In this document: positions 44,814 to 64,000 of the stretch, piece by piece | How positions within the stretch are numbered: the first letter of the stretch is position 1 | Layout: each line of letters opens with the position of its first letter | DNA from: Aptenodytes patagonicus | Lineage: Eukaryota; Chordata; Aves; Sphenisciformes; Spheniscidae | Assembly: GCF_965638725.1 (NCBI RefSeq) | Contig: NC_134961.1 | Location: forward strand, 2,852,001-2,916,000 | Length of the DNA stretch: 64,000 bases | Direction of reading: 5' to 3' | The notes under the pieces: model-generated | The model's database searches: none | Told to the model about the DNA's origin: nothing | What the model saw: the letters and a program-made list of their open reading frames with translations, nothing else | Program-made: the position numbers and the translations under genes

Positions 44814-47800
44814 GTGAGGGCTGCCGGGGTACCGGGGTTGCTGGGGGGTACCGGGGGGCGCCGGGGCTCACGGCGGGGCTGCAGAGCTAACCTGGAGTGC
44901 CCGAGGGACTGTCCCCAGGTCCTCCAGTGCATCAGCTGCCGGCTCTCGCCCCCCTGCACTCCCACCGTCCCTCATCCCCTCCGCCTGATTTCTGAAGGAG
45001 ATGAGGCGTGCGTGTTGTACGGCCCCTCTCTGCTCCCCTCGTCTTTCGTTTTGCCTCCTCCGCCAGCCCCTGGGCCCCTTGGCCATCGCCACCACATTTG
45101 GCAGGCAGCCCATGAAAATCCCGTTCCCACGACTTTTGTAAAGCCAGAGGCCACACAGAGAGAGGGCTGCCAGTCATCTCACTGCTGGAAGAGCAGCTTT
45201 GCCCTAGTAGACATCGGAGAGCCCATGGCAGAGGGTGCCGGTGGGGTCTGCTCTGCCTGAGGCCACCCCTGTCCCTGGGGCTATGGCCACCTGCTCCCAT
45301 GTGCTCCACCACAGATGGCAGAAGAGCTTGGTGTGTGTGTAACTGTCCCTTCAGGGAGGACCTGTGGGTGCGAGAAGGGAAGATCCTCAACCCAGAGAAA
45401 CTCTTCTTTGACGAGAAGGGCTCTGCTGACATCCAGCTGGACTGCAAGGACAGCATCATCGCCCCGGGCTTCATCGATGTCCAGATCAACGGTATGGCAA
45501 AGCCACACACGCTCGCAGCGGGGTGGGGGTCCCACGTTTGTCCATCACTGACCTTCAATCCTGCTGTGTGCATACTGCCCATGACCAAGTGCGTTTCAGC
45601 TGCTCCAGGGAGATGTGAGTCACCGAACTAACGATAAAGAACAATTTTGCCCGTGATTGCTGCTGTTGCATAATTGATCCCCTTTGGCTGGGTGGTGGTT
45701 TCAGCCCAGCTTTCCTCTTAACCTCATTTTCATCAACAGTCCCTGCCCCTGTGCTGGCAGGATGCCCGCCCTACCCTTTCCAGGATGCAGGGAGGACAGA
45801 GCAGGACTTCTCGAGGGAACAAACCTTACCTGCAGTAGCTCTTTCCTGAGGGTCAAGAGAGGCTTGTTCTATAGTAGCTTATGTTGGAAGTTAGATCCCC
45901 TTTTCAATGGGGAATCCTCAGATTTTGCCCTGCATCAAAATAAAAAGTTGCAAAACGCTGGGATGCTGTGGGAAAAGCACTTCAGCAGGACAGCATTGGT
46001 TGGATTTCTACTCGTAGAGCCTTGCAAATGTAGGACAGGAGAAGTGCTGGTGGAGCCCTTCGCTTCTGGTCAGTGCTGTACAAATGGAGTGGCTCACTCC
46101 AGTCACACAAAATGTTTCTTCGGCGTTTTCAGGTGGGAAAACATCCACCGGGGAGGCTGCAGCTTCATCTCTGTTTTGTTCATGGTGCAGGAGGCTTTGG
46201 GGTGGACTTCTCCCTGGCTACAGATGACTTCAAATCAGGGATTGACTTGGTCAGTCAGAAAATCCTCTCCCATGGAGTGACCTCCTTCTGTCCCACCCTG
46301 GTGACCTCTCCTCCATCTGTGTACCACCAGGCAAGTGACTTTCTTCCCCTCTCATCTGCAGGGTGATAAAGGGCTGAGGTTGGTACTAAGAGGTGAGAGG
46401 GCCAAGGGCTGGGACTGCAGAGACTGGGATAACTGCCTTGGCGGAAAAGCCGTGGGCATGAGGAGCTGGACTCTACCCCTGGATTTCTTGCCCTTAACCT
46501 TTAGACATCGCTAAGACAGCGATGTCTCCCAGGCCAGCTTTGCACAACGGGGCTTGCAGCTGGCTTTTTCTTTGCGAGCTGTGTTTGGCTGATGGTCCCA
46601 AGTGGTCCAGCTACACAGCTCTCTCTGGACCCGAGGTCTGGGTTTGTTTTGGCAGGCTGGGGTGCTGTGTCTGGGGTGCCATGTCTGACAAACCCCTTTC
46701 TCTAGGTTCTCCCTCAGATCAGTATAAGAAATGGTGGAGCCCACGGAGCAGGTATCCTGGGTAAGTGGTTTTGTCCCTCGCTATCCTTTCTGATGATACT
46801 CTAGGTAGGCAATTATCTTGTTCATTGTTAAGGAGAAAGAAGCTACTGTAGGGACAGGACAAAATGGGGGCTGGAGCTATCTTGATGGGAGGGGTGCACA
46901 GGAGGGCACAGACCCGCTTTCTCCCTCAACCTGTGCCTGGCCTTTGCCGTGGTCTCTGCCATGATACACACACTGCTCCAGCCCTTTTGGGCCCCACAGG
47001 TTAATGGCAGTGGGGTGGCTTGGCTTGGCCAGTTGCCAGCGCTGCATCTTTCGCTGTGCTGAGCTCAGAGTTACCCGAGCCATGTGTTTTGCTGCGGGAG
47101 AATGGGAAGAGCTTGACTGGAGCAGGGTAGACACAGCAGGTTTCTTGGTCCTTGGCGGGGAAAGGGTCATAGCTTTGTGTTTCTGTTTGGGCAGGGACCC
47201 ATCTGGAAGGACCATTCATCAGCAAGGAGAAGAAAGGGGCGCACCCGGAGCACTGTCTCCGCACCTTTGAGGCAGGTGCCTTCCAGGACCTGCTTGCCAC
47301 CTACGGGTCCCTGGACTGTGTCCGGATAGTCACCCTGGCCCCAGAGATGAAGAGGAGCAGTGAGGTGATCCGGGAACTCACCAAGCAGGGCATCTGTGTC
47401 TCGCTCGGTAAGGGCTGGGGAGGAGGAGGCTTAGGGAGGCTCCGTCTCCCTGTGCCACATGGGCCAGGCAGCCCCTCTCTCAGGGCTGTAGCACCTCTAA
47501 TGGTGTCTCAGTGTGACTGGATGGGGTGGGATTTTCTTTTGCCTGGCCGATGTGGAGGTGACAGACCTGTCACAAATGGGGACCTCACTTGATGCTGCGA
47601 ATCTGTCGCCCTTTGTACGGTAAGGGCCAAACTTCATATTGATTGAAAAGCCCCTGCAGTTTAACACAAGGTAGCATTTGGTGCTGCAAATACACAGGAA
47701 AGAATAGCAGTCTTACTTGAATAAAGGTGTAATTGAGGGTTGACGATGTGGAAAGATTCAAACTCTGAAGTTCAACTGCTTTAGGCCTTGTTTGACAGGT

Positions 47801-50800
47801 GAAATAATTTTCCAAAGGTTATTGTTGAGTTTTGATAACTCTGTTTTTCAACTGGAAGTGCTGTAGGAGACCTCTACCTCCATTGCCTTGCCACTGGCAG
47901 CAAGGGCCTCCAAGGCCACTGACTTAAAACTGGCTGCATTTTTCTTGTCCTCTGTTTCACAAACTCTTCTTTGCCTCATTAAAGAAATCATTAAAGAAAT
48001 CCGGGGGGGTAGTTACTCAGGGTGAAATTAAACCTTAAGTGAGAAGGGCATTCGCACAGCAGAGCATCTCTTATCTCACAGCCACATAAAGAACCACAGA
48101 AAGGCAAAGTTTGCCCACAGAGCATTAGAGCTGCTGTCCGTGTTGGGGAAAACAGAATTTTCCTTCTTGGCAAAGTCCCCACTGTCTCTACTCCCTTGAC
48201 AGCTCTCTGTAAAGCCTTTAAACATCTGAGGACAGCAGACAGGCGTGTCCTTGGACCTCTAGCCTAGCCTGAGGGCAACTCTCTGGGAGCAAGGCAGCAT
48301 TTGTGATGGTTGTGATGTGAACAGTGAATGCGTTCAGGTGAAGCACCCACTGCCCGAGTCCCCCATGGTCATGGCCAGACACCTCTGTGCCGAGGCTGGC
48401 ATCTCAGACCTCAGCCCAGGGTGGGGCATCAGAGTAGAGTCCTAGTGACAGAGCGTGTCTTCACTCCTGTAGGGAAATAAATGGAGAGACGGGCAGAAAA
48501 ATCATGTGTTGGTCTTTGTTCCTAGGTCACTCGGTGGCTAATCTCTCTCAGGCTGAGGAGGCTGTGCAGCATGGCGCTACCTTCATCACTCACCTCTTCA
48601 ATGCCATGTTGCCGGTGAGTAGCCGAGGGCACTTGCCCTGCGCTGGTATTGCTTTTGGTGCTTGCCCTCCTGCTCCCCACAGATGCATATTCTCCCCAGC
48701 TTGTTTCGTAACAGGCCTTGCACTGAGGTTTCAGCACTGAACCTCTGGCTTCACATTTCTACTGCCTGATCTAAAAGAGAGTCAAGGCTGTATCAGACTC
48801 TTGAAATTCGAGGAAATGCCCAGATTTGTCTGGTAAAAGATGGAGAACCTAGCTGCCAGGCGCTGTTTGATAGAGATGGTAGCTGCGTCCCCTGATGGGA
48901 AGGGTCTCAGCCCACAAGTCCTGGTGATGCTCCACAGCTGGTCCTCTCTCCCCTCGGGCAGTTCCACCATCGTGACCCTGGGATCGTGGGACTGCTGACA
49001 AGTGACAAGATTCCTGCTGGGCGGAGAGTCTTCTACGGCATGATCTCTGATGGCATCCACACCAATCCCGCCGCCCTACGAATCGCCCACCGAGCCCACC
49101 CCAAAGGTGAGCCATGTCGGGCCCACGCAGCGTCACCAGCCATCCCGAGCACTGTGCCATCTCCCACAAAACACTCACGCAAGTGCTGTGGCATGCTGCC
49201 CTCACTGCCTGAAACAGGTCACAGCCATGTGTGCTGATCCACCAGCCCTCTTGCTTCGGTCGGATGTGGCTAGAGACGCTTTGGCCCCTTTCTGGGAGGA
49301 CCAGCATGGCGCAGCGCTCGGAGCTGCAGCAAGGTCGGCTGCAAAGCTAACGCAGCCTCTTTCCTTGCGTTCCTCAGGCCTGGTGCTGGTGACGGATGCG
49401 ATTGCTGGCATGGGGCTGGCACCAGGTCGGCACACACTGGGTCAGCAGGTGGTGGAGATCGATGGGCTGAACACCTACATTGCAGGTAAGTGCCGTCCTG
49501 CAAAAGAGCTGGGGCAGCGCTGCCACTCGTGTCTGTTCTGGAGAGCTCAGCACGCCTTGCAGTGCTTGTTGGTTGTGCCACCCTCTTGGGTTTTGGTGCC
49601 TGATCGGTTAATGGCTCTGCAGTGACTTGGCCCTGGGGATAATGAGGCACCTCGTGAAGAGGGGGATTGCCCCATCTTGGTGGAGTGAGGAGGAATCTGT
49701 CAATTTTCAGCTGTCCGCAACACCTTTGAACACCTTGTTGCCCAATGTCATGGATGCTAGATCCCCAGTGGGGTCAGAAAGGACAGAGAAATCCCACAGA
49801 TATTTATTGTCCCTTGTCTTTACTATAACACCACCACTTCTTGCTAACAAATATCCCTAAACTGCAAGCAATTGGAGACTGGGAAGGTATTTCGGAGAAG
49901 GATCATTCCTTTCTCAGTTCCCTTCCTCTGTCTCTGGCAGCAGGTGCCTGCGTTGTGAGCTAGTTTCACCCAGTCCAGCTGGTTTTATGGTGGAGCTGCA
50001 GGGTGACATCCCGGTACATCTCCCTGCGCCACCAACACAGACTCGCTCTCGCCTCACTCTGTCACTCGGCAGCCATGGCTGTGGGCCTTTCAACTCACTC
50101 CTCGTGTGACCCAGGATTTCTACCCCTTTTGGTCACATTATGCTTTCCCACTGCCCCGCTTCTCCTTGCTATGAGTTGTGGGACCTGCGCAGTGCCATCC
50201 CGTTCCTCTCCCAGGTACAAAGACCCTGAGCGGTAGTGTGGCAACCATGGACACATGTGTGCGACACTTCCAAGAAGCCACAGGTAAGTGAGCCTTGTCC
50301 ACAAGGTGTTGCCCCCTACGTTGACTTGGGAAGAGGTCTTGCTCTTGCCAGCTGTGTCCGCTTCACCAGGGAATGTTCCCTCTTGCCCAAGACAATGAGA
50401 AGGGCTGGGATCAGCGGCACTGGCCACAGATAAGCAACTTTTTGAGGGGAGGTTTCATCTTAACCCATAGCACTAATGAGAGGTGAACTCTCCTGCTCCT
50501 TTCTCACAAAGGTGAATGACTTTCCCCTCCCCATACCCTAGGTGTTCAGTTCTCCTCTTCCCGTTATCTCCCGTAGGGATGTTTCCCCTCCCCAGCTCCA
50601 TATGGCTGTGGCGAGGATGTTCTAGCTCAGGTCCCTGCCAGGCCGACAGTTGCCTTAGCCAAGGGGATTTGGGCTGCTCTGGCAATGGGGCTGTTTGTTG
50701 CCCTAATGCCTCCCCCTTCTCTGTTCAAGGGTGCTCAGTAGAGACCGCGTTGGAGGCAGCGTCTCTGCATCCCGCCCAGCTCCTGGGGATTGAACACAAA

Positions 50801-51335
50801 AAGGGGACACTAAATTATGACTCCGATGCAGGTACTGGTATGGGGACAGCAGGTACTGGTATGGAGACAACAGTGTGAGGGCTCCCGGGTGCTGGAGTAA
50901 AGCAGGGGCTGCTGCGAACGCATCTTCATCCCCTGCTTCAGTGGGAGCTGCAGGGAGACTCGCTCTGCCTGGGATTTTCTCTGGGCTTTTGCTTTAGGCT
51001 TTTGCTCCAGTGTTTTTCCCCTTGGATGCTGGTGGTGTTTCGTGAGCCCTTTGGAGAGACCAAAGGGCTCCATGCTCCAGCCAAGCATGGAGCAGAGCCA
51101 CCATAGCACAGATGGCACCACACTGCTGTCTCGCTGCCATGTCTGGGTGGGGAGAAGCTCTTTCCCACAGAGCCCAGCTCCTCCCAGCCAGCTTCAGCTG
51201 CTCCATTTATCTGACGCCTGCTTCCTTTCTCTCTTGTCCGATGCAGATTTCCTGATGCTGAATGATGGTCTGTATGTGCAAGCCACGTACATTGCGGGTG
51301 AGGAAGTCTGGAGACAGGATGCGTTAGGCATGTGA
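44731..51335 (+). CDS. AMDHD2: AMDHD2, N-acetylglucosamine-6-phosphate deacetylase
   Basis: This NagA-family amidohydrolase converts GlcNAc-6-phosphate to glucosamine-6-phosphate plus acetate, feeding amino-sugar salvage and opposing the hexosamine pathway in the cytosol. Eleven coding exons (44731-44813, 45355-45491, 46191-46330, 46706-46760, 47195-47407, 48526-48614, 48962-49106, 49378-49485, 50215-50283, 50730-50831, 51247-51335) total 1230 nt, 409 residues, the same length as human. Metal ligands are E143 in HLEGPF, H211 in LGHSVANL and H232 in THLFNAM; the catalytic aspartate is D294 in [23 protein letters not shown] and [19 protein letters not shown] are further family signatures. The N-terminus ([15 protein letters not shown]) differs from mammals; the ATG context is weak (GCGATGC, purine at -3). 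Intron 3 has a GC donor and exon 10 ends beside a duplicated donor. Every joint keeps phase, so this is an intact gene. Confidence 0.97.
45355..45491 (+). CDS. AMDHD2: AMDHD2 exon 2
   Basis: The acceptor CCCTTCAG ends at 45354 and the donor GTATGG starts at 45492; 137 nt, phase 2 to 1. It runs from [18 protein letters not shown] to [10 protein letters not shown], the entry to the TIM-barrel. The second donor position is less than ideal but the phase fits only here. Confidence 0.95.
46191..46330 (+). CDS. AMDHD2: AMDHD2 exon 3, with GC splice donor
   Basis: The acceptor GGTGCAG ends at 46190. The exon ends CAG with GCAAGT at 46331, a GC-type donor that otherwise matches consensus perfectly. 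140 nt, phase 1 to 0, [10 protein letters not shown] through [14 protein letters not shown]. Confidence 0.94.
46706..46760 (+). CDS. AMDHD2: AMDHD2 exon 4
   Basis: The acceptor TTTCTCTAG ends at 46705 and the donor GTAAGT starts at 46761; 55 nt, [18 protein letters not shown]. The downstream joint restores HLEGP. Confidence 0.95.
47195..47407 (+). CDS. AMDHD2: AMDHD2 exon 5 (metal ligand E143)
   Basis: The acceptor TTTGGGCAG ends at 47194 and the donor GTAAGG starts at 47408; 213 nt, residues 139-210. It contains [19 protein letters not shown] with ligand E143, the helix FQDLLATYG, and the strand VRIVTLAPE. Confidence 0.97.
48526..48614 (+). CDS. AMDHD2: AMDHD2 exon 6 (ligands H211 and H232)
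   Basis: The acceptor TTTGTTCCTAG ends at 48525 and the donor GTGAGT starts at 48615; 89 nt, residues 210-239. Both metal-binding histidines, in GHSVANL and THLFNAM, are encoded by this one exon. Confidence 0.97.
48962..49106 (+). CDS. AMDHD2: AMDHD2 exon 7
   Basis: The acceptor CCCTCGGGCAG ends at 48961 and the donor GTGAGC starts at 49107; 145 nt, residues 240-287. [15 protein letters not shown] and [19 protein letters not shown] are substrate-phosphate and barrel elements. Confidence 0.97.
49378..49485 (+). CDS. AMDHD2: AMDHD2 exon 8 (catalytic D294)
   Basis: The acceptor TTCCTCAG ends at 49377 and the donor GTAAGT starts at 49486; 108 nt. It contains [12 protein letters not shown] with the catalytic D294, then [16 protein letters not shown]. 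Confidence 0.97.
50215..50283 (+). CDS. AMDHD2: AMDHD2 exon 9
   Basis: The acceptor CCTCTCCCAG ends at 50214 and the donor GTAAGT starts at 50284; 69 nt encoding [19 protein letters not shown] and the next residues. The TLSGS turn is conserved in the family. Confidence 0.96.
50730..50831 (+). CDS. AMDHD2: AMDHD2 exon 10
   Basis: The acceptor CTGTTCAAG ends at 50729. The exon is 102 nt, ending GATGCAG before donor GTACTG at 50832. It encodes [19 protein letters not shown] through [10 protein letters not shown]. The donor is weak and is copied 21 bp downstream; see the tandem duplication at 50828-50869. Confidence 0.94.
50828..50869 (+). repeat. 21-bp tandem duplication containing the exon 10 splice donor
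   Basis: Unit 1 (50828-50848) and unit 2 (50849-50869) both read GCAGGTACTGGTATGG then GGACA or AGACA, one mismatch. Each carries CAG|GTACTG, so two near-identical donors lie 21 bp apart. Use of the second would insert seven residues, GTGMGTA, in frame and without a stop. Confidence 0.85.
51247..51335 (+). CDS. AMDHD2: AMDHD2 exon 11 (terminal)
   Basis: The acceptor GATGCAG ends at 51246 after a CT-rich tract. The exon is 89 nt, [19 protein letters not shown] then VWRQDALGM and TGA at 51333-51335. It completes the small beta domain that began in exon 1. Confidence 0.96.
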
Positions 51336-52940
51336 CGCTGGGCTGTCCTGGTGCCCTCCGAGGCTCCCCGGCACTGTGGTTAGCAGCTTTGGTAACCACG
51401 CCACTTCTTTTTTTTTATTTTTTTTTTAATTCCTTCCTGCAACTCCCTTAAAGGAGCCTCATACCAAAGAGCTGCGTTTTCCAGCGCAACCGCTGCTTCC
51501 AGTTACAGCCATGCCTGCAACAAATTTGTTGGTGCTCAGTTGGTGGAGTGGGGAAAGCAGGCAGACCTGTGTTTGGGGAGACTGTCAGTCCCCAGAGTGA
51601 CCTGAAGGACTGCACAGCTGTCCTGCATGGAGTCCCCAGACAGAAGTGCTCCTGTCGACGTCTTACAGCAGTGTGAAAGCTGTCCCAGCCTTTGCACTGT
51701 TTCATACAGCACACACTAACCTGCCCCATGCCCCAGGCAGGCTCAAGCCATTTCCATTCCTCTGCCTGCTGTTTGCCTCGCTCCCAGGCAGCCGTGGCTG
51801 GTTAGACATCAGCTTCCACCAGCTCAGCTCGCAGCTCTTCACGTTAAAAGGTTCCTGTTGTGTCAGCAGAAGTTGAGGATCACGTTCTGATCCCCCGGCA
51901 GTCCCTCTGTCGTGTGTCCTCTGGAGCAAGGCTGTCACAGCTTGCCAACTCGGTGCCATTGTGAGGCTGTGAATCCATGTGGGCTGAATTCTCAGGGCAG
52001 AGATCAAACCCAGGAAAAATGAGGCATTGCTGGTCCTTTGTGCCTTTTCCCTGCATGGGCATTGAGTCCACAGCACGTGGTTTCAGCTGGAGACATGGAC
52101 AGCATCCTGCCACAGAAAGCAATGTTCCTCTTAACTCTTTGTTCTGGCTAGGTGGGTTCTGCAGGCTCTGTGCCCAGCCATACCTCGCAGAGCCTTTGCA
52201 TCGTCTGATGGGTTTGTGCGTCCCTCAGGCCACAGACGGGAAGCTTTTGCTTTAGGGGATGCATCCAGACTGGTAGTGACGGGCTCACAAGCCCTCGGTC
52301 CAACTCAGGGACTGAGGGAGAGGAGAACTGCAGCGGGATTCTGGCCTTTCAAGACAGTTGCTGATAGCTCGTTATTCCCGTGCTCATTATTATCTTCTCC
52401 AATACTTGACTGTCAGCTCTTTTCCTGACACTTGGACACTTCTATGCGAAGACTGATGCTGATTTCAAACCTACTGCAGTCAGAAAAGTCTTGCGATAAG
52501 TCTTAGACAACCTGTGACAAGACTCAAACCAGTTAGATGTTTTTTGTAGTGAGGGGAGGGCTTAGACAAAGGCCAAGTCTTAGCAGGGGTGGAGGCTGTA
52601 AGGCAAGACAAAAGTCTGGTTGGGATTGACAGACGTGTGCCGATTTTTCCAGTACCTTTTTATAACCTTTAACAGCAACATTTTGAAGTGCTTTCCTAGC
52701 ACTTTAGAGCCCTGCTGGAATAACTGGCAGCCTTGGAGAATTTCTAACATCAACAGCCAATGTCAGGAGAAACTATAGCCTCCACGATTTGAAGCATTTG
52801 AAAGAGACATCAAATACTGTGCTGAGAAATGTGACGTGGTACAGCATTACAAGTCTCAGCAGGGGCACTTTTGACTGCTGTTGAAAAAAATCCAAGGGAA
52901 AAAAATGCGTGTGAAACAAGGTGTCTAACTTTTTTTATTT
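51336..52940. other. AMDHD2 3' UTR and flanking sequence
   Basis: No exon is supported. A T-rich block (51408-51428) lies soon after the stop. I find no AATAAA on the + strand before an ATTAAA at 52946, so the 3' UTR may be about 1.6 kb long, or a non-canonical signal is used earlier. Confidence 0.45.
52934..52939 (-). terminator. Minus-strand poly(A) signal AATAAA
   Basis: The minus strand reads GTAAATAAAAAAAG, a canonical AATAAA, eight bases after the stop of the minus-strand frame at 53786-52947, followed by T-rich sequence. A 3' UTR this short would be unusual. Confidence 0.4.
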
Positions 52941-52945
52941 ACAAA

Positions 52946-52951
52946 ATTAAA
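52946..52951 (+). terminator. Candidate AMDHD2 poly(A) signal ATTAAA
   Basis: ATTAAA, extended to ATTAAATAA, in an AT-rich 30-bp patch. It lies seven bases from an opposite-strand AATAAA (52934-52939), so the patch could end transcripts from both sides. Confidence 0.35.
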
Positions 52952-53786
52952 TAATCAAGAGGAAATCTAAAATAGAAATGGAATCAGACCATACCTGTAT
53001 ACGTGTATTACCCTTTTTTTGTCTGCGGAAAACACGCTGTACCCTACCCATGGTGTTGTATGGTGGCGTGGTGTGTATCAGGCTGGGATCCGAGCCGCCG
53101 GTGGCACCGTGGCCCTCGGGCCTCCGCGTCTCGATGGGGACAACGCTGATGTGGGCGCTCCCGAAGGTGCCGTGGGATTTGGTCCTGCCGAGGGAGGCCG
53201 CAGCCGGACAGCCAGCGTGCTGGCGGTGGAAACGTGGCCCAGCAGCTCCCTGTGGGGCTCGGGGAGAGGCGAGCTTGTGGGGGGACAAATGCACCGCGAA
53301 GGTGGGAGCTCGGCTCCTCTGATCCGCCTCCCGCCGAGGCGTCCTCAACCTCGGCTCGCCCAGCTTCGAAGGAAGGCTTTGTGCCTCGGCACCCCGGGCC
53401 TTCACCCGGCCCTCCCTGCGCAGGCCCCGGCGAGGGCAGGCTCTGGAGGGCCGGGCGGGCCGCCGCCGGAGGACGGTGCTGGTGCCGGTGGCCTCGCCGG
53501 GTCTTCCCCCGCGGTTGCCCCGGGCCGAGCGGAGGGGCCGCCCCGGTGGCGGTGGTGGCCCATGGCGGTCTGTGACGAGCCCCTGGCCCCCGGCCGCCAG
53601 CGGGGCCTTTCCCCGTCCCTCGCCGGCGGCTCCGTGCTGGGTGCCGGGGCCCCGAGGGGCGAGGCGGGCCCGGGCTGGCCGCGCTTTCCCCCCGGCGCGG
53701 CGGGCGGAACGGAGGCGCGGGACCCGGGGAGCGGCCGGAGGGGCGGCGGGCGGACCGCTGCGGGGGGAGGCCTTTGGGCGGTGCAC
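52947..53786 (-). CDS. Possible minus-strand gene, unknown product
   Basis: An open frame of 279 codons starts in the CpG island and ends with TAA at 52949-52947. I do not recognise the protein. The first 200 codons are Pro/Arg/Ala/Gly-rich and could be a chance frame in GC-rich DNA. The last 80 codons are different: from GRTKSHGTFGSAHISVVPIE through LIHTTPPYNTMGRVQRVF to RRQKKGNTRIQV the third codon position is nearly always G or C while positions 1 and 2 are mixed, as in a real coding exon. On the minus strand CCTCGGCAG ending at 53194 could be an acceptor and CAG|GTATGG at 52995 a donor, so the true gene may be spliced. It would be divergent from the C8orf33-like gene and convergent with AMDHD2. 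Confidence 0.35.
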   Translation of the reverse strand: MHRPKASPRSGPPAAPPAAPRVPRLRSARRAGGKARPARARLAPRGPGTQHGAAGEGRGKAPLAAGGQGLVTDRHGPPPPPGRPLRSARGNRGGRPGEATGTSTVLRRRPARPSRACPRRGLRREGRVKARGAEAQSLPSKLGEPRLRTPRREADQRSRAPTFAVHLSPHKLASPRAPQGAAGPRFHRQHAGCPAAASLGRTKSHGTFGSAHISVVPIETRRPEGHGATGGSDPSLIHTTPPYNTMGRVQRVFRRQKKGNTRIQVWSDSISILDFLLII

Positions 53787-54040
53787 GGCGGCCGGGCCCT
53801 TCCCGCCTTCATCACCCGGGCCCCGGCGGTTGTCCCGGGCCCGGCCCCGGCGGCCGAGGGGCGGCGCGCAGACCCCGGGCCTCAGTCGCTGGTGCCGTCG
53901 CCGGAGCTCGGGAGCTCACACGCTGTTCCGAGACCGGAGGTGGGCGGCGGCGGAGGGGCCCGGTTTCCTGCCCGTGGCGGCGCGGAGACTGCCCAGCATG
54001 GAGCGGGTAAGAGCTTTGCTCGGCCCCTCTCTGCCCCTTG
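53060..54040. promoter_or_regulatory. CpG island, possible bidirectional promoter
   Basis: About 1 kb of dense CpG and GC sequence ends at the first exon of the C8orf33-like gene on the + strand and covers the 5' part of the minus-strand frame. No TATA box was seen. Long overlapping open frames on both strands (for example 53019-54218 on +) are expected in such sequence. Confidence 0.7.
53998..54006 (+). CDS. C8orf33-like exon 1 (start, MER)
   Basis: ATG GAG CGG is followed by donor GTAAGA at 54007. The start context AGCATGG is strong and the phase-0 end matches the next exon. The frame is open upstream through the CpG island, so a longer N-terminus is possible. Confidence 0.55.
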
Positions 54041-57000
54041 CTTCTGTCCTGAGGCACCCTCTTCTCCACCGGCCCTTTGCCGAGGCACCTTTGTCCAGGC
54101 CCAGGCTCTTCTCCAGCCCGCAGCAGTGCCCCCGGCTCCCGGGAGGTTTTCTTTAAAGGGCTTCCCTGGCCCTTGTGCCTGCCTTTCCCAATTCCTGGTC
54201 ACCTCGTTACTCTGCTAAGGCAAGATTTTTTTCATTTCCTAACGCGTTGTAACGACTTTCTTGTCCACAGGCAGGCTTCTAAGCCTTGCTTTGCAACTGC
54301 TTAGCAGGAGGCATGCAGGGTAAAAATACAGCAAAGGACTTGTGTTTAAAGAGAAATTCTGTGTGTTGCCAGAGCTGTGCTGGAGAGAAGTTTCCTGCTG
54401 TGGAGACGTATTACGCTATAGAATAAGCTTCAGGAAAAATGAGAAATCTTCCATTTGGGGCCTTTAAAAAGGAAGAAGGAGAAAAAAGGAAGAAAACAAT
54501 CTGTGGGAAGTCTTGGCTTGCCAGGAGTGGGTGGCTTACAGCTAGTAAGAGTTTATTGTCTCTAATTTTTGTAATGAAGAGGGCTCATTTGGTGCCCTCC
54601 CAATAGGGAGTATTGCAGGGCTTGTGTCTCACCCTGTGCTGTGTTGGTTTATGGTATAAATTGAGCTGTTACACCACACACCTCAAGTGTAAAGCCAGAA
54701 AAGGGGTTTATGACCTGCTAGTCTGATCTCCCACATAAGAGGGGAGAAGACTTCAGAAAACTCAGTTTTGGAATCAATTTTGCAGGTGAGAGATTTGTGC
54801 TTCTTTTAAACATTGTGCCTTCCCCCATCCCATGTCCAAGGCTCCCCAAGGCACGTTCCAAGATGAGCTGGAGTGGTGCATTTCGCAGCTGGAAGCAAAT
54901 CTCCTTCGCCTCAGCCCAACCCCAAAACAAGGTATGTTGCTTCTCTCGCAGTCTGCAGCCATATTCCAACCTCAGTTCTGATTTAGCAGACCTGGACATT
55001 TTTCTGTTTCTTCTCTCCTATCTGTTTCCTATTCTTGTGTTATGTGGGATTTGTTCTAAATACAAAACAAGATAAAGCATTGAACTTTAAGAACTGTCTG
55101 TCTGGAAGCAGCTTTATCTTTCATTCCTGTGACATTCATTCTCTGTTTTCTGTACTTGTTCTCATGTTCTCATTTCCTCATCTAACAGCTTGTTGTTTGG
55201 TTCTGCTACAGCTCACTTTTGTTTTCCAATCTCAAGGAAATACTGTGTTAGTGCATCTGGCCCTTAAACGCCAGTAGGTTTATTTTTGTGAAGCTTGTTC
55301 CTCATCGTTATTGTTCCAAGGAGAAACTACATGAAAGATAAAATCCTATAAAGTATTTTTCAGAAGATCACACTTTGATCTAGTCAGTCCAACTTGTAAA
55401 TATATGAAGACATGTGTCCTGCTCCTCCTGATGGCTAGTACTTAACATTTAGAGGAGGGGTGTGGCTGCCCTTTGTAAGATGCCTGGATGAGTGGTTGCT
55501 GGTGCACCTGAGGAGGTAGCAGTGATTACTACTTGCCCACACACCATGCTTGAGCATCAGACCATTTTGTTACACCCGGTATCTAGTGTCCAGCAGCAGC
55601 GGGGGAAGGCTGCTCCTGGAGGGGATGCAGGAGCTGAGCACAGTGACAAGGCAAGCACTGGCAAGACTTGGCCAGAAAAGGGCCCATTTGCACAGTATCT
55701 GACCCAGGAGAGCAAAGCAGTACTGCTGATGGTAACCAGGCTCTGCCTGGAGTCCAGATTGCCAGAGGAGTCTGCAGTGATGAGGCAGATCAAAGCTCTA
55801 GCCAGGAATTCAAGTCCATGGATCAGGGTCAAGGTCTGGATCAATGAGATAGAATCATAGAATCATTAAGGTTGGAAAAGACCTCTAAGATCATCGAGTC
55901 CAACCGTCGACCCAACACCACCATGTCCACTAAACCATGTCCCTAAGCGCCTCATCTACACATCTTTTAAATACTTCCAGGGATGGGGACTCAACCACTT
56001 CCCTGGGCAGCCTGTTCCAATGTTTAACTGCTCTTTCAGTAAAGAAATTTTTCCTCATGTCCAATCTAAACCTCCCCTGGCACAACTTGAGGCCATTTCC
56101 TCTCGTCCTGTCGCTTGTTACTTGGGAGAAGAGACCGACCCCACCTCGCTACAACCTCCTTTCAGGGAGTTGTAGAGAGCGATGAGGTCTCCCCTCAGCC
56201 TCCTTTTCTCCAGGCTAAACAACCCCAGTTCCCTCAGCCGCTCCTCATCAGACTTGTTCTCCAGACCCCTCACCAGCCTCGTTGCCCTTCTCTGGACACG
56301 CTCCAGCACCTCGACGTCCTTCTTGTAGTGAGGGGCCCAAAACTGAACACAGTATTCGAGGTGCGGCCTCACCAGTGCCGAGTACAGGGGCACGATCACT
56401 TCCCTACTCCTGCTGGCCACACTCTTTCTGATACAGGCCAGGATGCCATTGGCCTTCTTGGCCGCCTGGGCACACTGCCGGCTCATGTTCAGCCGGCTGT
56501 CGACCAACACCCCCAGGTCCTTTTCTGCCGGGCAGCTTTCCAGCCACTCTTCCCCAAGCCTGTAGCGCTGCATGGGGCTGTTGTGGCCGAAGAGCAGGAC
56601 CCGGCACTTGGCCTTGTTGAACCTCATACAGTTGGCCTCAGCCCATCGATCCAGCCTGTCCAGGTCCCTCTGCAGAGCCTTCCTACCCTCGAGCAGATCA
56701 ACACTCCTGCCCAACTTGGTGTCATCTGCAAACTGACTGAGGGTGCACTCGATCCCCTCATCCAGATCATTGATAAAGATATTGAACAAGACCAGCCCCA
56801 AAACTGAGCCCTGGGGAACACCGCTCGTGACCGGCCACCAACTGGATTTAACTCCATTCACCACAACTCTCTGGGCCCGGCCGCAGCAGTGCTACACATG
56901 AGATCCTCAGCTAAAATAACTCCCAAGTGAGGGAGGGGAGAGGTTCCTCTGAAGCTTTTTCTAGCTCTTTCTTTGTAACAGGTCTTATTAGTGAGTAGGC

Positions 57001-60000
57001 CTTGAATGCAGCCAGCTAAACTCCTTGAAGCAGGGGGGAATGTGTGCTCAAGACCCTGACACCCAGGTACTATGAAGATACATCCCACTTTTTTTGGGTG
57101 GCTACTGCCCCACTGTGGCATTTCTGCCTTGCACTTGCGTGCCGTTACTCTATTCCTAGCATGGGACTCTCAGTGTTGGATCTGCAAGATACACATTTGG
57201 AGAATCCCAGAGAGATGCACTGCAGCCAAGAGAGATGAGTGTGTGCCCATTCCAAAATACTAGTCTAGTACATCAAGCTTTTCTGTGTCTTGAAATGTGT
57301 GAGACAAACACTGGAAGACTATGCATATCTGGAGTTCCCAAACAGGTCTCTGGCGACTGCTGTCACAGAACAACTACTGTGATTTTTAGAGAATTTACTC
57401 TGACACAAAGAATTGGGGTTACTGTTGTGGTCAGGCCAGTTTGTATGAGAGTCAAGCAAGAGTCCTGCTTTTCAAAGTATGCTCACTACTCAGATTTTTT
57501 TCCAGTTTTCCAGAGAAGAGACACCGAGCTAGGCTCTTGGATTTGTCTCTTGCTTTGGGGAAAGGGTCGTTAAGCCTTGTATAGCTTCTGTGCCATTAGT
57601 AGTGCACTTACTGCAGTGTAAGATTCTTAACATATATAATAAGTAGTTAAGATGTTTTGTTTTTTTTTTTTTTCCTTTAAGAACATTTCACAGTATTTCA
57701 GCTTCTAGAAGCTCTTGGAGTTTCCTTTCAAAATGCCAGTCATGGATTGTGGTATGGTGGTATGAACACAGAACACGTTCAGAGGAGACCCAGTCATCAG
57801 CATCCCACAATATAGTTTGTAAGGCCCACCATAACCTGTTTCTTGTCTCTCTTGGACTTTTTCTTGAGTGCAGCAGAGGAGGCACAGCACATTCTCAAGG
57901 TCCTGCGCTCCCGTGAGACTCCTTTTGTGAAGAAGCAACAAGTGATGAACCGTGTGTTTGGGGATTATCGTCTCAAGATGGCTGAGGATCAGAAGAGCAT
58001 GGAGAAAGCAGGTGAGCTTGAACTGTCCCTTCAGGGGATGGTGATATTTGGTTCTTTTCTGTAGATTTCTTACGTTGTAGCTTTTGATTGGATCACCTCT
58101 CTGCAGCAGTGCCTTACAGAGGGAGTTGCAGTAGCAGTGGCATCCCCGTAGTAGGAAACTGGCATATTGATAGAAACATTATTCTTTATCTTTTCTAGAT
58201 GTGAAACCTGGTGATGTGGAAGTACAGCAAAGCAATGGGCAGGCTTCAGATGGTGTGGTATATGGGAAACAATCTGACCAAATCTCTGAGGCAAAGCCAG
58301 AGTGGTTCATGTCATCTGACAACAGCTTCCGATTTGATTTTACACTTTTTGAGATCAACCCAGAAGCAACTGGCACATCTTTGGAAGCAGTCCCTGGTGT
58401 CAGTGGTGCTGAGCAGATACAAACCAATGTAAGAGCCACCGAGCAGGAGAACTGGAATGGAGCCTTGAGTTTTGCTGCCTCTGGACAAGAACCCAGGTTT
58501 GCTTTCAACTTTGCCATCCCAGATGAAGACTGTCCTCTGGTTCCATTAGTTCCAACAAGCCAACATATAGAGGGTACAGCAGATCACGAAGTGCTGGGTA
58601 ATTCACTGCCTACTGAATCAGCAGGTATGCCACGGATTTCGGCATTGCAGAAGCCTGAGTTGACTCAAACTACAGGTAGTGCACCCAAAGAGGATAGAAG
58701 CCATGTCACGTTAAAGATCCCCCAACCAGAGACTGCTCCCGGAGATGAGGCAGTGACAGAGAAATCAACAGCAGATGGAACTGCCCAGAAGAAGAAAAAG
58801 AAGAAGAAACAAAAAACATCTGTCAGTAAAAAGGAGATAGAAGAAACTGAGATCGACAGGAAGGCAAAGGCAGAAGCTAACAGATGTCAAAATAAAGATA
58901 ACTCCCACCAGGATGAGACCTCTCAGGTATTTAAATATTGATGGGATGCCATAATTTGTAAACCCTTGAGCAAAAGAGAAACTTTATCTCTTAGCATAGT
59001 TTAACAGTTAGTATACTGGCTTGAGATGAAAGCTGAAAGACAAAGATTGCTGCTTATTTCTTACAGCAGCTGTTTTCTTTTCCTGCTAGAGAGCTGAGGA
59101 ACCTAACTAGTGGAAAGGAAGTTAATGGTCCTTTGTTGTCTGCTTCAGACTTGTGCTGAAACATTTCATGTTTAGACTTGTGATGGCTAATCCTGGGAAG
59201 CTGGGTGCCAAGTTTTCTTAAAAAAAAATAAAAAATGGAGGTAACTGTCCTCACTCAGTGCCAAGCAGGTATCTGTGCGTGCTGAATCAGGCACTGTACC
59301 CCTGACTTGCATGTTACGGGGTAGGATGAATTGCTCACATAATGCGAAGGGCAAAGCTGAGGTGCAGAGCTGCTAGGTGGTGTTGCTAAGGCTGTGGCAG
59401 GGTCTGGTGCAAAGCCTAAGGGTGCTTCTGAAAAGGTTCCCACTGTAAGGCGTGGCCCAGAAATCGACTGAAGTTGCGAGTTATGTGTAGACACACCATT
59501 AAGGCACACCCTGAGGTTTTCTGATGTTCTGCTAAGGTCCAGGTCTTCATTTTATTTTTCTTTTCAGCACTTGTGTAGCTATTATTAACAAACAATGCCA
59601 GCTGAGCAATATTGAAATACAAAATTACAAAAAACTTGCTTTTGTTAATATTCTACACTGAAGTCGCACTGAGTGTTCACCTGCCTCTTGAAGCATTACA
59701 TCCAAAGTGCTGCTTCACCAACAACCTTATCAATAAAAACGCTGCTGTGTACCAGAAAGGTAGAAAGATTTGAAGGTGATGTAAAGCCCTTCCAGTCCAT
59801 TGGAAGGAGGCTGTTGTAAGGAAAAGAAGGAGACAGCATGAGGGCTTTGTGTTTGCATGTACATAACAGTTAAGAACTGCTTCAGCCCCAGAATGCCGCC
59901 CTGTTTCTCTCCCTTCCACTGCTCAGTTAGCCAGCTGGTTTTGCTCAATGGGACTTGGCTTCTTCCATCTTCATGGGCTTCAGCTCCCTTCTCCTCATGC

Positions 60001-61138
60001 ATTTCTGCTTGAGCAAGCATGCAGGAGCTGAGACACCAAGACTTGGCTTCTGATTTTGTCCATTGTTTGCTTTTTGATTTTGGGCAGGGTTTGGGGGTAG
60101 GGGTTTTTTTTGTTGTTAATGCTTATTCCTCCCATCTGTAACTTGATTTGACAGCTTCTTTCAGAGGAAAGGCCCTGGACAGCTTTCCAGAAAATGACAT
60201 CATCTGAATGGCAGCCAAATATTAAATCCATCACATAGAGGCAGTGAGTTGCAACTAAACGTTTGTCCAGTGCTTTAAGTTTATCCAATGAAAAGCACTA
60301 TAGGGAAAATGTCATGAAGTCTATAAAGTGATCACCAGAACATGAAATTTGGAATAGTCCTGACTTTATGCAGATACCATTTTTCCTGTGTAGCAACTGC
60401 TGCTGTAATTTTTGGATGACTTATTTCCTCATGCTCACTCTGCTCCATGTTGCACAGCAGTCAGATGACCAGCTGTGGAAAGAGGTGGACTGGTGTGTGG
60501 AACAGCTGGAACTTGGCCTGAAGACACAGAAATCCACTCCAAAGCAGGGTAAGCATTCAAGTAAACGAGAGATCTCCCCTGCGGGGAGGGTTGGCAGGCG
60601 TGTGGGGGCAGAGCCAGTGGGAAGTCAAACTGTGCGTTGTTTCTCCTTTGCACTGCTTCAGTCGAGGAGGCTCTCCGTGCGATCAAGACACTGCGCAATG
60701 ACAAGGCTCCACTGGTGAAGAAGCGTCAGCTCATGAGAGCCATGTTTGGTGACTATAGGAAGAAAATGGAGGAGGAGCGGTGCAAAGAGCTGAAGCTCAT
60801 GGAAACAGGTAGGAGAACTTTGCATGCTGGGGGAAGTGAAGAGGAAAGGGCTTTGCTCCTGCCCTCTGTATTGCTTTGCAGAGTGGGACCTCGCTATATG
60901 AGATGACTAAACATCTCTTACTCTTTTCTCCCCTCTTTAAGCTGTGAAATCTGCCAGGGTCGTGGAAGTGAAGGGAAACATCCGCAACAAGAACTGCCAG
61001 TTCATCCGGAAGTGCTCAGGAGCTTGCAGGAAAAGCCAAGGTCCAGCAGGATCCCCTTCAGAGTCACCCAGGACACTTAACACAGGCTCATTCAAGTTCA
61101 CAACTTCCCAAGAAGAGTTTCGCTTTAATTTCTTGTAG
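53998..61138 (+). CDS. UPF0488/C8orf33-family protein with duplicated module
   Basis: The family is named after human C8orf33 (UPF0488); its function is not established. Seven coding exons (53998-54006, 54841-54931, 57874-58011, 58199-58926, 60458-60548, 60662-60808, 60942-61138) join to 466 residues. The family core appears twice. Copy A (about 9-127): [17 protein letters not shown]-like PTPKQ, then [20 protein letters not shown] and SFRFDF. Copy B (about 324-466): [38 protein letters not shown] and EEFRFNFL at the C-terminus. Between them lie a second aromatic motif (RFAFNF, 179-184) and a lysine run (277-285) that may be a nuclear or nucleolar signal. The human protein as I remember it is about 229 residues with one copy resembling B. 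The ATG at 53998 has A at -3 and G at +4. Exon 1 adds only MER and is the least certain part. Confidence 0.85.
54841..54931 (+). CDS. C8orf33-like exon 2 (module A, part 1)
   Basis: The acceptor CATGTCCAAG ends at 54840 and the donor GTATGT starts at 54932; 91 nt, phase 0 to 1, from [19 protein letters not shown] to PTPKQ. Length and phase equal those of exon 5. Confidence 0.82.
55850..56886 (-). mobile_element. CR1 LINE, 5'-truncated, antisense in intron 2
   Basis: The minus strand encodes the C-terminal part of a CR1 reverse transcriptase: [17 protein letters not shown] with the catalytic aspartate pair, [33 protein letters not shown], and an open frame from 56864 to 56118. The 3' end at about 55850-55900 has the bird CR1 hallmark, GGTTGGAAAAGACCT on the + strand beside AATCATAGAATCAT, the octamer tail. 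The 5' limit is about 56886, where similarity stops after [10 protein letters not shown]. The element lacks most of ORF2 and all of ORF1, so it cannot move by itself. The uninterrupted 248-codon frame suggests a fairly recent insertion. Confidence 0.95.
57874..58011 (+). CDS. C8orf33-like exon 3 (module A, part 2)
   Basis: The acceptor CTTGAGTGCAG ends at 57873 and the donor GTGAGC starts at 58012; 138 nt, phase 1 to 1. [18 protein letters not shown] then [18 protein letters not shown]. It is homologous to exon 6, which is three codons longer. Confidence 0.93.
58199..58926 (+). CDS. C8orf33-like exon 4 (module A end plus linker)
   Basis: The acceptor ATCTTTTCTAG ends at 58198 and the donor CAG|GTATTT is at 58927; 728 nt, residues 80-322. 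It begins DVKPGDVEV, matching [10 protein letters not shown] of exon 7, then SFRFDF (122-127), RFAFNF (179-184), a Ser/Thr/Pro-rich stretch, and an acidic/basic tail with seven lysines in a row. Without splicing at 58926 the frame adds VFKY and stops at 58941, and AATAAA occurs at 59227, so a short isoform is conceivable. Confidence 0.9.
60458..60548 (+). CDS. C8orf33-like exon 5 (module B, part 1)
   Basis: The acceptor is CACAG|CAG, a NAGNAG pair: starting at 60458 gives an extra Gln, at 60461 none; both keep frame. With the first, the exon is 91 nt, phase 0 to 1, exactly like exon 2. [20 protein letters not shown] then [10 protein letters not shown]; donor GTAAGC at 60549. Confidence 0.93.
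60662..60808 (+). CDS. C8orf33-like exon 6 (module B, part 2)
   Basis: The acceptor TGCTTCAG ends at 60661 and the donor GTAGGA starts at 60809; 147 nt, phase 1 to 1. [18 protein letters not shown] then [18 protein letters not shown], and a charged helix [18 protein letters not shown] is the family signature. Confidence 0.94.
60942..61138 (+). CDS. C8orf33-like exon 7 (terminal)
   Basis: The acceptor CCCTCTTTAAG ends at 60941; 197 nt, [18 protein letters not shown], a basic stretch, then [12 protein letters not shown] and TAG at 61136-61138. The C-terminal EEFRFNF is the ending I recall for the human family member. Confidence 0.95.
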
Positions 61139-64000
61139 GAAAGTCTTTTAGACTAAAATTGCGGCTGAAAACTGTGCCAATTCTTCTATAAACTTAAGAA
61201 CAGTGGAAAGATGCTGTGCAGCAGAAAATGTTACGCAAGAATCTGTGTGTATTTCCTAAAGAAAGGTTTGAAACAGATCTGCCTACTACGCATACGACCC
61301 CAGGACTCAGTCTACATAGTCTGTCCTCGCACTGTAGAAAGGCACCTTTGTGAAAGATCAGCACAGAGTCTGGAAGGATCTGTTTTTCTTCCTATAGAAT
61401 TGACATTAACTTAAGAATCTGTCTTTTATACTGGGAGATTTTCCCATTCTCCTATTGCTTTTAAGTAGAGCAGACCTTTTATAGCAGATGAGGCAGCGAT
61501 GCATACAGAAGGGAATGGTTTGTAATGAAGATCCAGCTTCTGTGAAGATCCAGCAGTGTAAGCATACTGGATAGTTGAATGCTTCCACTCCATGTGAGTC
61601 TGTGTGAATGCAACTTCTGGTATCCAGAAAGCACTGACCAGTGTGTGTAATCACTGCCATCTAGAGAGTATGAGTTCAGGATCTTGGAGGAAAATAAGTG
61701 AGAATCATCTTTACTCATTCATCTCTAATTGACAGGTATAGACTTAGAAGAGAACTGCAAATGGTGATTTAATCTAGCCTAGGGATGTGAGGACAGTTGT
61801 TTCCAGACAGGGAAGGACTTTTGTTGCTGAAGCCAGGTTCTGGCCTGCTAGGAAGGATGCACAATCAGTTCTTAAAAAAAGAAGTTTGCTTTATAAGTAG
61901 CCCAGTTACAACCACTCAGAGGATAAATCAGCTGCATGCCAAACCTTGGGTGGCGGTAAAATGAACTGTGAGAGCCCAAAGATTCTCTTGCATTTGATTT
62001 GTATTAAATTTTTGCTTTCTGAACAGTTGAATGTGTCTCCAGTGTTTTGATACTGCTTCAGCCACTGTACCCACTTCCTATGTTCATGCAGAAAATCTTC
62101 CCCACTCAGCCTAAAAAAGCTGAAGGAACAGAAGTCCTTTAAAAGGAAACATGGTAGCAGGTGTCCCTAGGGTGCAGTGCTTTCCTTCCTTTTTATAGTC
62201 CAATCAGTCATCCTGTATGAGAAGCGAGAAATGGGAGTGTAGGCAGATTCCAGGATATACTGAGAGCAGCTGAGAGATGGTGGAAAACATTTGCTGGGAA
62301 AGACTTCAAAAAACCTGATGTTGGCTACAAAAAAACCTTATTTTATTACTGAGCTCTGATGCGGTCAGTTGCATCTATGAGAATTTTTTTTTTTGTTTAA
62401 ATATTTTAAAGAATGCCTGTCTAGGCATAAGGAGAAACCAGACCTGGGTAACATATCTCATGAGGAGAAATATGCAGAGAAGACTTTAAGTCTTCTGGAA
62501 ACCAATAGGTTAAAACTGGAATCAGTAGGTTAGCAGATTATTATTTTACTTGCCGAGGAGCACTGATGTTACTTTGACTGTATGGAACAACACTATATGG
62601 TATTTTTTGGATTTCCAGGATTTTATATTAAACATACAAAAGCCGTGTCTTGTTAAACTTACAGTGTTTTCATGACATTTACCAAGATTAAAGAGCATCT
62701 TGTACATGACCTTGAAACTACAGCTGTTCTCTTTCCTAGCTGTTTATGCAGTGTGTGTCTGGGAAATAGTGATTTTTTTTTTTCCTTGTCTTGTTTCAGG
62801 TGAAGCTAGAGTTGCTAAAACGTTATAAAATCCTGTGCTGTGGAAGGCTGCAGGAGTATTTTGGGAAGCATTCTTACATAATTGTCTCGTGCTTATACTA
62901 TTCGTTAGGCATTCACAATTAGAATAAAGATACCAGTGAGAGGGACATTTGGTGTAACCTAATCCAGCCAGCTTATCTCCAAAGAGGGCAGAGAAAAATG
63001 CATTCTAATACGTGAGCGGCTCCTGTGGTTTGACAGAGGTCTTCACGTAATGCTGACTCGTAAAGCCAGCCCATGTTCCTTTCGCGGTGCTTCATTATTG
63101 GAGGACTCAGAAGGCAAATGTTCATCAATGCAGTACTTCATAGCCCTGAGTGTCATTCCTGACCTGTGGACTTGAGTGCAAGACCAGAGTCGGCTGGGTC
63201 GCTTCCGCAGGTCACTGTGTGATCTTGGACAAGGCATTTTGCCTTTCTGTGTCAGCTCTCTGTTTTCGTAGTCAAGGTGCGTTTTTGGCAGACGTGCCCA
63301 AGTTATTTCATTAATGATTGTGTTTTGAAGAGGCTACTCTATAGTATTTTGCATCTGAAATTACAGCAGTCTTTACTTCACTTTTAAGTTTTGTAATGTT
63401 TGAAGCATCTCTGCTGCATTATCATTTGTTCGAAAGGAAACAAGCCATGTTATTAGAAGTTAGGAAATGCTGTTGTTGCTCTATCAGTCTGTTCCCCTTT
63501 ATAGGAGCCACAATGCAGTCCTAATGACATTTTTTAAAAAAATGATGTTTTCTCCTTTTAGCATTTCTTTCTTTAGCATTTCAATGCTGTTTAGGGTTTT
63601 GGTGACATCTCTTGTTACAGCAGTGTCAGGTTTGGGTCAGGGCTTTGCTCTATTAGTTACTGTAATACATGTGGCTGGAGGCATGGTCCATGCCCTAAGG
63701 CATTAATGATGTACACCGGTGGGGGAGAAAGGAGATGTTCTCATCTGCTTGGAGTTCTCTGTTCCAGTGTTCTTGCATTAAGGAAACGTAGATCAGTTTT
63801 GGTAGAAAATTGAGCTCAGTTCTGACCTGCCTGTCTCTTTCTGCATCCTCTCCTCAGGTTCATGCCGTGCATTTGAGATGGGTGCAGAAGGGGTGACTGA
63901 ATTTGCAGTACCATATCTCTTTGGTGACTGCCCACCTAAATGTATTGCAGCAGTGCCAGGCCCAGGCTTGTAGGCAGCAAACTGCTTACAAGATCTTCCA
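61139..64000. other. 3' UTR and right flank
   Basis: The sequence following the last stop is presumably a 3' UTR to about 62.0 or 62.95 kb. After that I see no exon with family similarity on either strand. PDPK1 follows this block in human, but none of its coding sequence is recognisable here. Confidence 0.45.
62923..62928 (+). terminator. Candidate poly(A) signal of the C8orf33-like gene
   Basis: AATAAA in TTAGAATAAAGATACC, 1.8 kb after the stop. ATTAAA at 62003 is followed by T/GT-rich sequence (TGTGTCTCCAGTGTTTTG) and may be the main, nearer end. The choice is open. Confidence 0.4.

Follow-up and report, generated by a model that had tools for sequence, protein, structure and literature searches.

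The closest described relative of the gene discussed here is human C8orf33, whose function was assigned recently and lies in repair-pathway choice and the stability of ribosomal DNA (PMC12624059). According to that work, the human protein is nuclear and mainly nucleolar, is recruited to breaks and limits KAT8 on chromatin; it lowers the acetylation of histone H4 at lysine 16 (H4K16ac) and favours 53BP1 and end joining. Our subject is a gene in a stretch of 64,000 nucleotides from Aptenodytes patagonicus (assembly GCF_965638725.1, contig NC_134961.1, positions 2,852,001 to 2,916,000 of the forward strand; hereafter the window, from whose first letter positions are counted). We conclude that it is a homologue, probably an orthologue, of C8orf33 and that, judged from its sequence, this little-studied gene contains a real, old and in-frame domain duplication. 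The Pfam family DUF4615 is, we assume, that of human C8orf33 (UPF0488), and the mammalian protein presumably carries one copy of it. The bird protein differs from the human one in that it appears to have two such domains and a long linker, and its gene lies near ATP6V0C and AMDHD2 rather than in a chromosome-8-type locus. Its second domain ends in FRFNF, as does the human protein.

Domain duplication within single genes has been described elsewhere. The ligand-binding domain of vertebrate transforming growth factor-beta receptors is likewise duplicated, also in chicken, and in the older of these duplications the membrane-distal copy evolves faster and is associated with inhibitory function (PMC13187141, in the part available). 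We regard this, by analogy, as a useful precedent for the first copy of our gene, although the receptor domains are extracellular, were tested with ligands and belong to an unrelated family. Within its own family, Drosophila CG14286, which we take to be a UPF0488 member, offers a possible outgroup; in the accessible part of one survey it appears as one of the retrogenes that moved to another chromosome element (PMC2879276). A study of dmrt1 in Solea senegalensis reports, by its title, an intragenic duplication in a conserved vertebrate gene (PMC7605655), that is, in another gene and another species. Among the titles and the starts of abstracts on C8orf33, on UPF0488 or DUF4615, on internal exon duplication and on 16p13.3 synteny, no account of a doubled DUF4615 domain was found; for the symbol C14H8orf33, the titles that name an animal name cattle, buffalo and horse. 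A two-domain model may already be present in public annotation.

The predicted gene has seven coding exons on the plus strand (Table 1), which splice into one frame of 466 codons plus stop. The six introns (834, 2942, 187, 1531, 113 and 133 bases, in order) all have GT/AG ends. We define copy A as exons 2-4 and copy B as exons 5-7; their phases run in register (0-1, 1-1 and 1-0 in copy A; 0-1, 1-1 and 1-stop in copy B), and the duplicated unit starts and ends in phase 0. An earlier note on this DNA had proposed that these three exons form a tandemly duplicated module, free to duplicate without a frame shift; its exon coordinates, lengths and phases proved correct when the spliced frame was checked, and the module phases bear out the frame-keeping argument. 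The nine-base exon 1 falls outside the range 54841..61138 that it had given. Exon 4 contains the motifs FRFDF and FAFNF and a lysine-rich end, and its frame is open for 242 codons, a length that none of 20000 first-order simulations kept open.

Table 1. Positions of the predicted gene, its surroundings and neighbouring coding sequence in the window
Feature	Positions	Strand	Remarks
ATP6V0C coding exon	35893-36279		16 kDa vacuolar ATPase (V-ATPase) proteolipid subunit; Pfam 71.7 bits; 6vq6 E 8.8e-39
AMDHD2 coding piece	47173-47589		N-acetylglucosamine-6-phosphate (GlcNAc-6-phosphate) deacetylase; best 7nut E 4.2e-30
CpG island, putative promoter	53000-53999	.	CpG observed/expected 0.82, 0.90; guanine plus cytosine (GC) 0.69, 0.82 (two 500-base blocks)
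Exon 1, coding part	53998-54006	+	9 nt; M E R (ATG GAG CGG); end phase 0; donor CGG/GTAAGA
Exon 2	54841-54931	+	91 nt; phase 0 to 1; copy A first helix region (WCxxQLE), TPKQ
Retroposon reverse-transcriptase fragment, intron 2	56121-56891	-	outside the predicted protein; Pfam RVT_1 44.3 bits, cut-off 29.6
Exon 3	57874-58011	+	138 nt; phase 1 to 1; copy A helical hairpin with FGDYR
Exon 4	58199-58926	+	728 nt; phase 1 to 0; long low-similarity linker
In-frame stop on exon 4 read-through (VFKY stop)	58927-58941	+	open frame 58174-58941 ends DETSQVFKY
Exon 5	60458-60548	+	91 nt; phase 0 to 1; copy B first helix region (WCxxQLE), TPKQ
Exon 6	60662-60808	+	147 nt; phase 1 to 1; copy B helical hairpin with FGDYR
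Exon 7	60942-61138	+	197 nt; phase 1 to stop; copy B tail, ends FRFNFL

Both copies belong to the DUF4615 family (PF15393; profile of 137 positions, cut-off 27 bits). The full protein scores 237.6 bits in two stretches, and each copy alone exceeds the cut-off (A 94.5 bits, B 161.2 bits), which disposes of the concern that the two modules might fall with unrelated families. Copy B spans positions 1-137 of the profile. Copy A is given as 2-137, yet exons 2 and 3 alone supply 93.1 of its 94.5 bits, over positions 2-72. Taken singly, exon 5 matches positions 1-26 with 33.8 bits; exon 2 (24.2 bits, 2-26) and exon 7 (24.0 bits, 77-137) remain below the cut-off. Copy A had been described as the more diverged of the two, and its lower score agrees with this, as do the scores of exons 3 and 6 in a search of the genome (53.1 and 77.4 bits, respectively) and the comparison with a provisional human sequence presented below. 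Among other Pfam families scored against the protein and its parts, PDE4_UCR, XPD_arch, DUF4662, DUF5059, NopRA1, HTH_OrfB_IS605, RR_TM4-6 and ECM10 were rejected with scores well below their cut-offs.

The copies are also homologous to one another, clearly so in two of the three exon pairs. They are identical at 38 of 82 aligned columns, with 4 columns gapped (BLASTP E 4e-20), and their local alignment score of 174 compares with a mean of 35.9 (standard deviation 5.7, maximum 69) for 2000 shuffles of copy B. When the exons were aligned pair by pair, the scores for exons 2 and 5 (64) and for exons 3 and 6 (105) were not reached by any of 1000 shuffles, so that the homology of these two pairs, as originally proposed, is strong. 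The six off-diagonal pairs gave scores reached by 129-854 of 1000 shuffles, as would be expected of chance. When the motif Q-x-M-xxx-FGDYR-x-[KQ]-M was sought as a degenerate DNA pattern, the window yielded just two matches, one in exon 3 and one in exon 6 (mean 0.00 in 100 shuffles). From these data, an in-frame tandem duplication of a module within one C8orf33/UPF0488-family gene is well supported at the level of sequence.

The third pair, exons 4 and 7, is less straightforward. Of 1000 shuffles, 84 attained its score of 34 and, taken alone, exon 4 has no match to the DUF4615 profile; we have therefore set aside the idea that it is a full third-exon match. The shared phase and motifs to which the earlier note pointed do stand, with corrections. 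Exon 4 opens with VKxxxVEV as described, but exon 7 opens with VKxxxxVEV, one residue longer; FRF(D/N)F is present in both copies, but exon 4 holds two motifs of the type FxF[DN]F and exon 7 holds one. In 20000 shuffles of exon 4 the VKx(3-4)VEV start never appeared, at least one FxF[DN]F motif appeared in 16 and two appeared in none, figures that are flattering because the patterns were picked post hoc. MAFFT pairs the FRFDF of exon 4 with the motif of exon 7. The profile, by contrast, is not complete until FAFNF (copy A residues 6-181). When copy A is truncated after FRFDF, the match to DUF4615 breaks off at position 103 of 137, and the profile thus gives no support for FRFDF as the end of the domain; this result and the silence of exon 4 on its own count against the two-domain reading. 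The shared entry phase, the VKx(3-4)VEV start and the FxF[DN]F motifs are suggestive of homology nonetheless, and we read exon 4 as an old tail exon that has been enlarged and largely rewritten. In exon 4, FRFDF is at residue 123 and FAFNF at residue 180, as if the tail peptide had been repeated.

The comparison of the copies indicates both age and constraint. Over 62 aligned codons the proportion of synonymous differences (pS) is 0.715 (bootstrap 0.54-0.89) and the synonymous distance (dS) is about 2.3, with a lower bound of about 0.97; because synonymous sites are near saturation, we regard the duplication as old. The interval is too wide, however, to place it before or after the split of birds and mammals, and dating by synonymous change was set aside for this width and the near saturation. 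The nonsynonymous distance (dN) is about 0.45 and the ratio of nonsynonymous to synonymous proportions (pN/pS) is 0.47 (95% bootstrap 0.33-0.66). Amino-acid constraint has held on the copies since the duplication. When the region was compared with itself by blastn (plus strand, E 1), four matches of 14-26 bases came up and the homologous exon pairs were missed too; the silence of this comparison on similarity of introns and flanks is consequently weak evidence, and we set aside intron dissimilarity as a clock because the method is too insensitive. Published dN/dS values for C8orf33 are 0.59 and 0.71 for the species sets of two comparisons; for the branches of the cinereous and turkey vultures they are 1.12 and 1.95 (PMC4618389, the part available giving no statement of the exons used). 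We take these values only to indicate that the gene evolves rapidly in birds.

A search of the assembly (1.35 Gb, 618 contigs) with DUF4615 gave three matches among eight candidates scored, and these are exons 6, 3 and 5 of this gene. No second DUF4615 locus was seen among the eight, in a search where exon 2 was too weak to appear and a very diverged copy could escape. Two DNA probes from exons 2-4 revealed no retrocopy in the genome.

We consider it likely that the locus is one gene encoding a 466-residue protein with two tandem DUF4615 domains. Its only CpG island within 52000-63499 lies at exon 1 (the other 21 blocks have CpG observed/expected ratios of 0.05-0.54), and this, together with the lack of any other DUF4615 locus in the search, makes one gene the likely arrangement. 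A single transcript, including the junction 58926-60458, is likely on the same sequence grounds. The alternative is that two transcripts lie side by side: a copy-A gene would finish in exon 4, with its stop at 58941, a copy-B gene would start from a promoter of its own, and the fused model would be wrong. Several features point that way: the in-frame stop falls 15 bases beyond the exon 4 donor; AATAAA occurs near this stop, at 58891, 59227 and 59732; the exon 4 donor, CAG/GTATTT, is by eye the least canonical of the six; and an in-frame ATG precedes exon 5 in an open frame at 60332-60718. A copy-A-only transcript is possible because the stop and the polyadenylation-like signals are so close to the donor. 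On the other hand, exon 5 has no CpG island upstream (the block 60000-60499 has the lowest ratio, 0.05), and the two exons fit each other in phase, exon 4 leaving in phase 0 with a GT behind it and exon 5 entering in phase 0 after an AG; we therefore think two separate genes unlikely, and very much more so that the first copy is an assembly artefact or is decaying. The greater divergence of copy A might be taken to favour decay, but the copy is open and its codons are constrained, and misassembly is unlikely because 44 of the 82 aligned columns, counting gaps, are not identical between the copies. Within the single gene that we prefer, the exon joins 1-5, 2-6 and 3-7 all preserve the frame. 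Skipping of copy A, from exon 1 to exon 5, is allowed since the phases are compatible, and could yield a one-domain form of 147 residues.

The time of the duplication is a separate matter, on which the human protein and the gene neighbourhood both bear. Using a provisional human sequence, and thus as a lead only, we find identities of 30/58 between A and B, 30/58 between A and human and 38/59 between B and human. Of the 59 core sites in this provisional comparison, 25 are shared by all three, 13 by B and human, 5 by A and B and 5 by A and human, with 11 all different; three sequences cannot root a tree. Given equal rates, the closeness of B to human, relative to the other two pairs, would date the duplication to the bird-mammal split or earlier. 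A bird-only duplication would call for a human branch that exceeds the B branch, yet the two are alike (5 and 5); barring unequal rates, it is disfavoured. As to neighbours, we take the match to 7nut in Table 1 to be AMDHD2. Six candidate frames for this gene, picked by eye, count against that reading, as no Pfam family scored above its cut-off: five had no match and the sixth (50516-50875) gave Amidohydro_1 at 18.4 bits (cut-off 25). The genes wdr90, rhot2, rhbdl1, wdr24 and anks3 are ones that we believe to lie at 16p13.3 in human. In sole, c8orf33 falls in a ten-gene set with these five that moved together across the species compared (PMC7915175, in the part available). Human ATP6V0C is at 16p13.3, and TBC1D24, AMDHD2 and CEMP1 are within or near the same small region, according to the portion available of another report (PMC12824621). 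The neighbours found here, ATP6V0C and AMDHD2, are on chromosome 16 in human, and the gene order would thus not agree with a site on chromosome 8, where the gene name places the human gene. The positions in this bird and in fishes agree at the level of the block, the named fish neighbours being different from those in the window. Since the bird neighbours and the fish block both look to be of the 16p13.3 type, the human position on chromosome 8 is probably derived.

These data lean towards an older duplication followed by loss in mammals, on the basis of the gene neighbourhood and the provisional human sequence. In detail, the two-copy gene would be ancestral to amniotes or older and mammals would have lost copy A, perhaps with a move from a 16p13.3-type block to chromosome 8; we hold this to be rather more probable than the other histories together. 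The neighbouring genes and the sole gene set fit it, as does a lysine-rich stretch that precedes both the human domain and copy B, at the end of exon 4. Of course, the two-copy form was seen in this window alone, the site patterns rest on few sites of a provisional sequence, a move of the gene and a loss of exons need not be linked, and the fish neighbours that are named are not those of the window. The converse, in which a single ancestral DUF4615 copy was duplicated in the sauropsid line and copy A then changed faster, is a serious if less probable possibility. The single copy that we take mammals to have speaks for it, and the wide synonymous interval given above permits a date after the split; the identities and site patterns in the provisional comparison, with B and human sharing 13 sites, run against it. 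The small remainder belongs to other histories. Returning to the older duplication with mammalian loss, we would go further only tentatively, at a little under even chances: the two-domain protein would represent the original state in amniotes or in vertebrates, the C8orf33 of mammals would be a relocated half gene without the N-terminal domain and the linker, and the extra domain of birds would add or tune a second contact with chromatin. If so, the known role of C8orf33 in repair choice would be only half of the original machine.

A mechanism can be sketched on this footing. An exon module running from phase 0 to phase 0 would have been duplicated long ago to give two tandem DUF4615 domains, and the tail exon of the first copy would then have expanded to form the linker that joins them, which is long, probably flexible and lysine-rich at its end. 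Each copy may consist of a small helical unit and, after it, a flexible tail that carries an FxF[DN]F peptide. The predicted fold of exon 6 (48 residues, from an alignment of two sequences) has two helices, residues 2-11 and 17-47, with a mean predicted local distance difference test (pLDDT) score of 91.7; a search of solved structures with copy B at E up to 10 found none. Copy B would retain the ancestral C8orf33 role, if what is known of human C8orf33 function applies here, and the faster-changing copy A might provide one more contact, altered in part, with a partner of the same kind. This role for copy A is a guess, and a doubtful one. Against a functional reading of the domain stands a term search of the accessible text of PMC12624059, which found no instance of 'truncat', 'UPF0488' or 'DUF4615' and three passages with 'domain' that concern other matters. 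As that search shows no domain mapping, DUF4615 itself is not tied to KAT8 in the text covered. A natural two-domain form would be a direct way to ask which DUF4615 copy binds the partner, and could show whether the copies cooperate or oppose each other. The gene also makes a clear and cheap test case for gain against loss across vertebrates, and its neighbourhood points to a relocation in which the human locus is the derived one; a doubled domain in C8orf33 leaves the general view of biology unchanged.

Some further observations concern the gene and its surroundings. The acceptors at 57874 and 60458 are of the NAGNAG type (GTGCAGCAG and GCACAGCAG), which may allow a one-codon variation in each of exons 3 and 5. 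The reverse-transcriptase fragment in intron 2, which we presume to be CR1-like, is part of the reason that this intron has 2942 bases and its copy B counterpart 113. Intron 1 of human C8orf33 is given as 88 nt (PMC10325915), against 834 here. Scans of the window for transfer RNAs and with Rfam gave 0 and 0 matches. In prokaryotic and viral contig collections, where absence has no bearing on vertebrates, protein patterns for DUF4615 relatives gave 57 and 179 matches, respectively, none of them confirmed by tblastn, and the FGDYR pattern gave 0 in each; WC..QLE picked out 29 viral stretches, none of which was matched by copy B in tblastn at E 0.1. Downstream of the window, an open frame at about 2952167-2952760 of the contig shows a weak match to the Lamin Tail Domain (32.2 bits, cut-off 34.3), and at least one further similar-looking frame of the LINEVN type lies within 40 kb downstream, perhaps a repeated lamin-tail-like gene.

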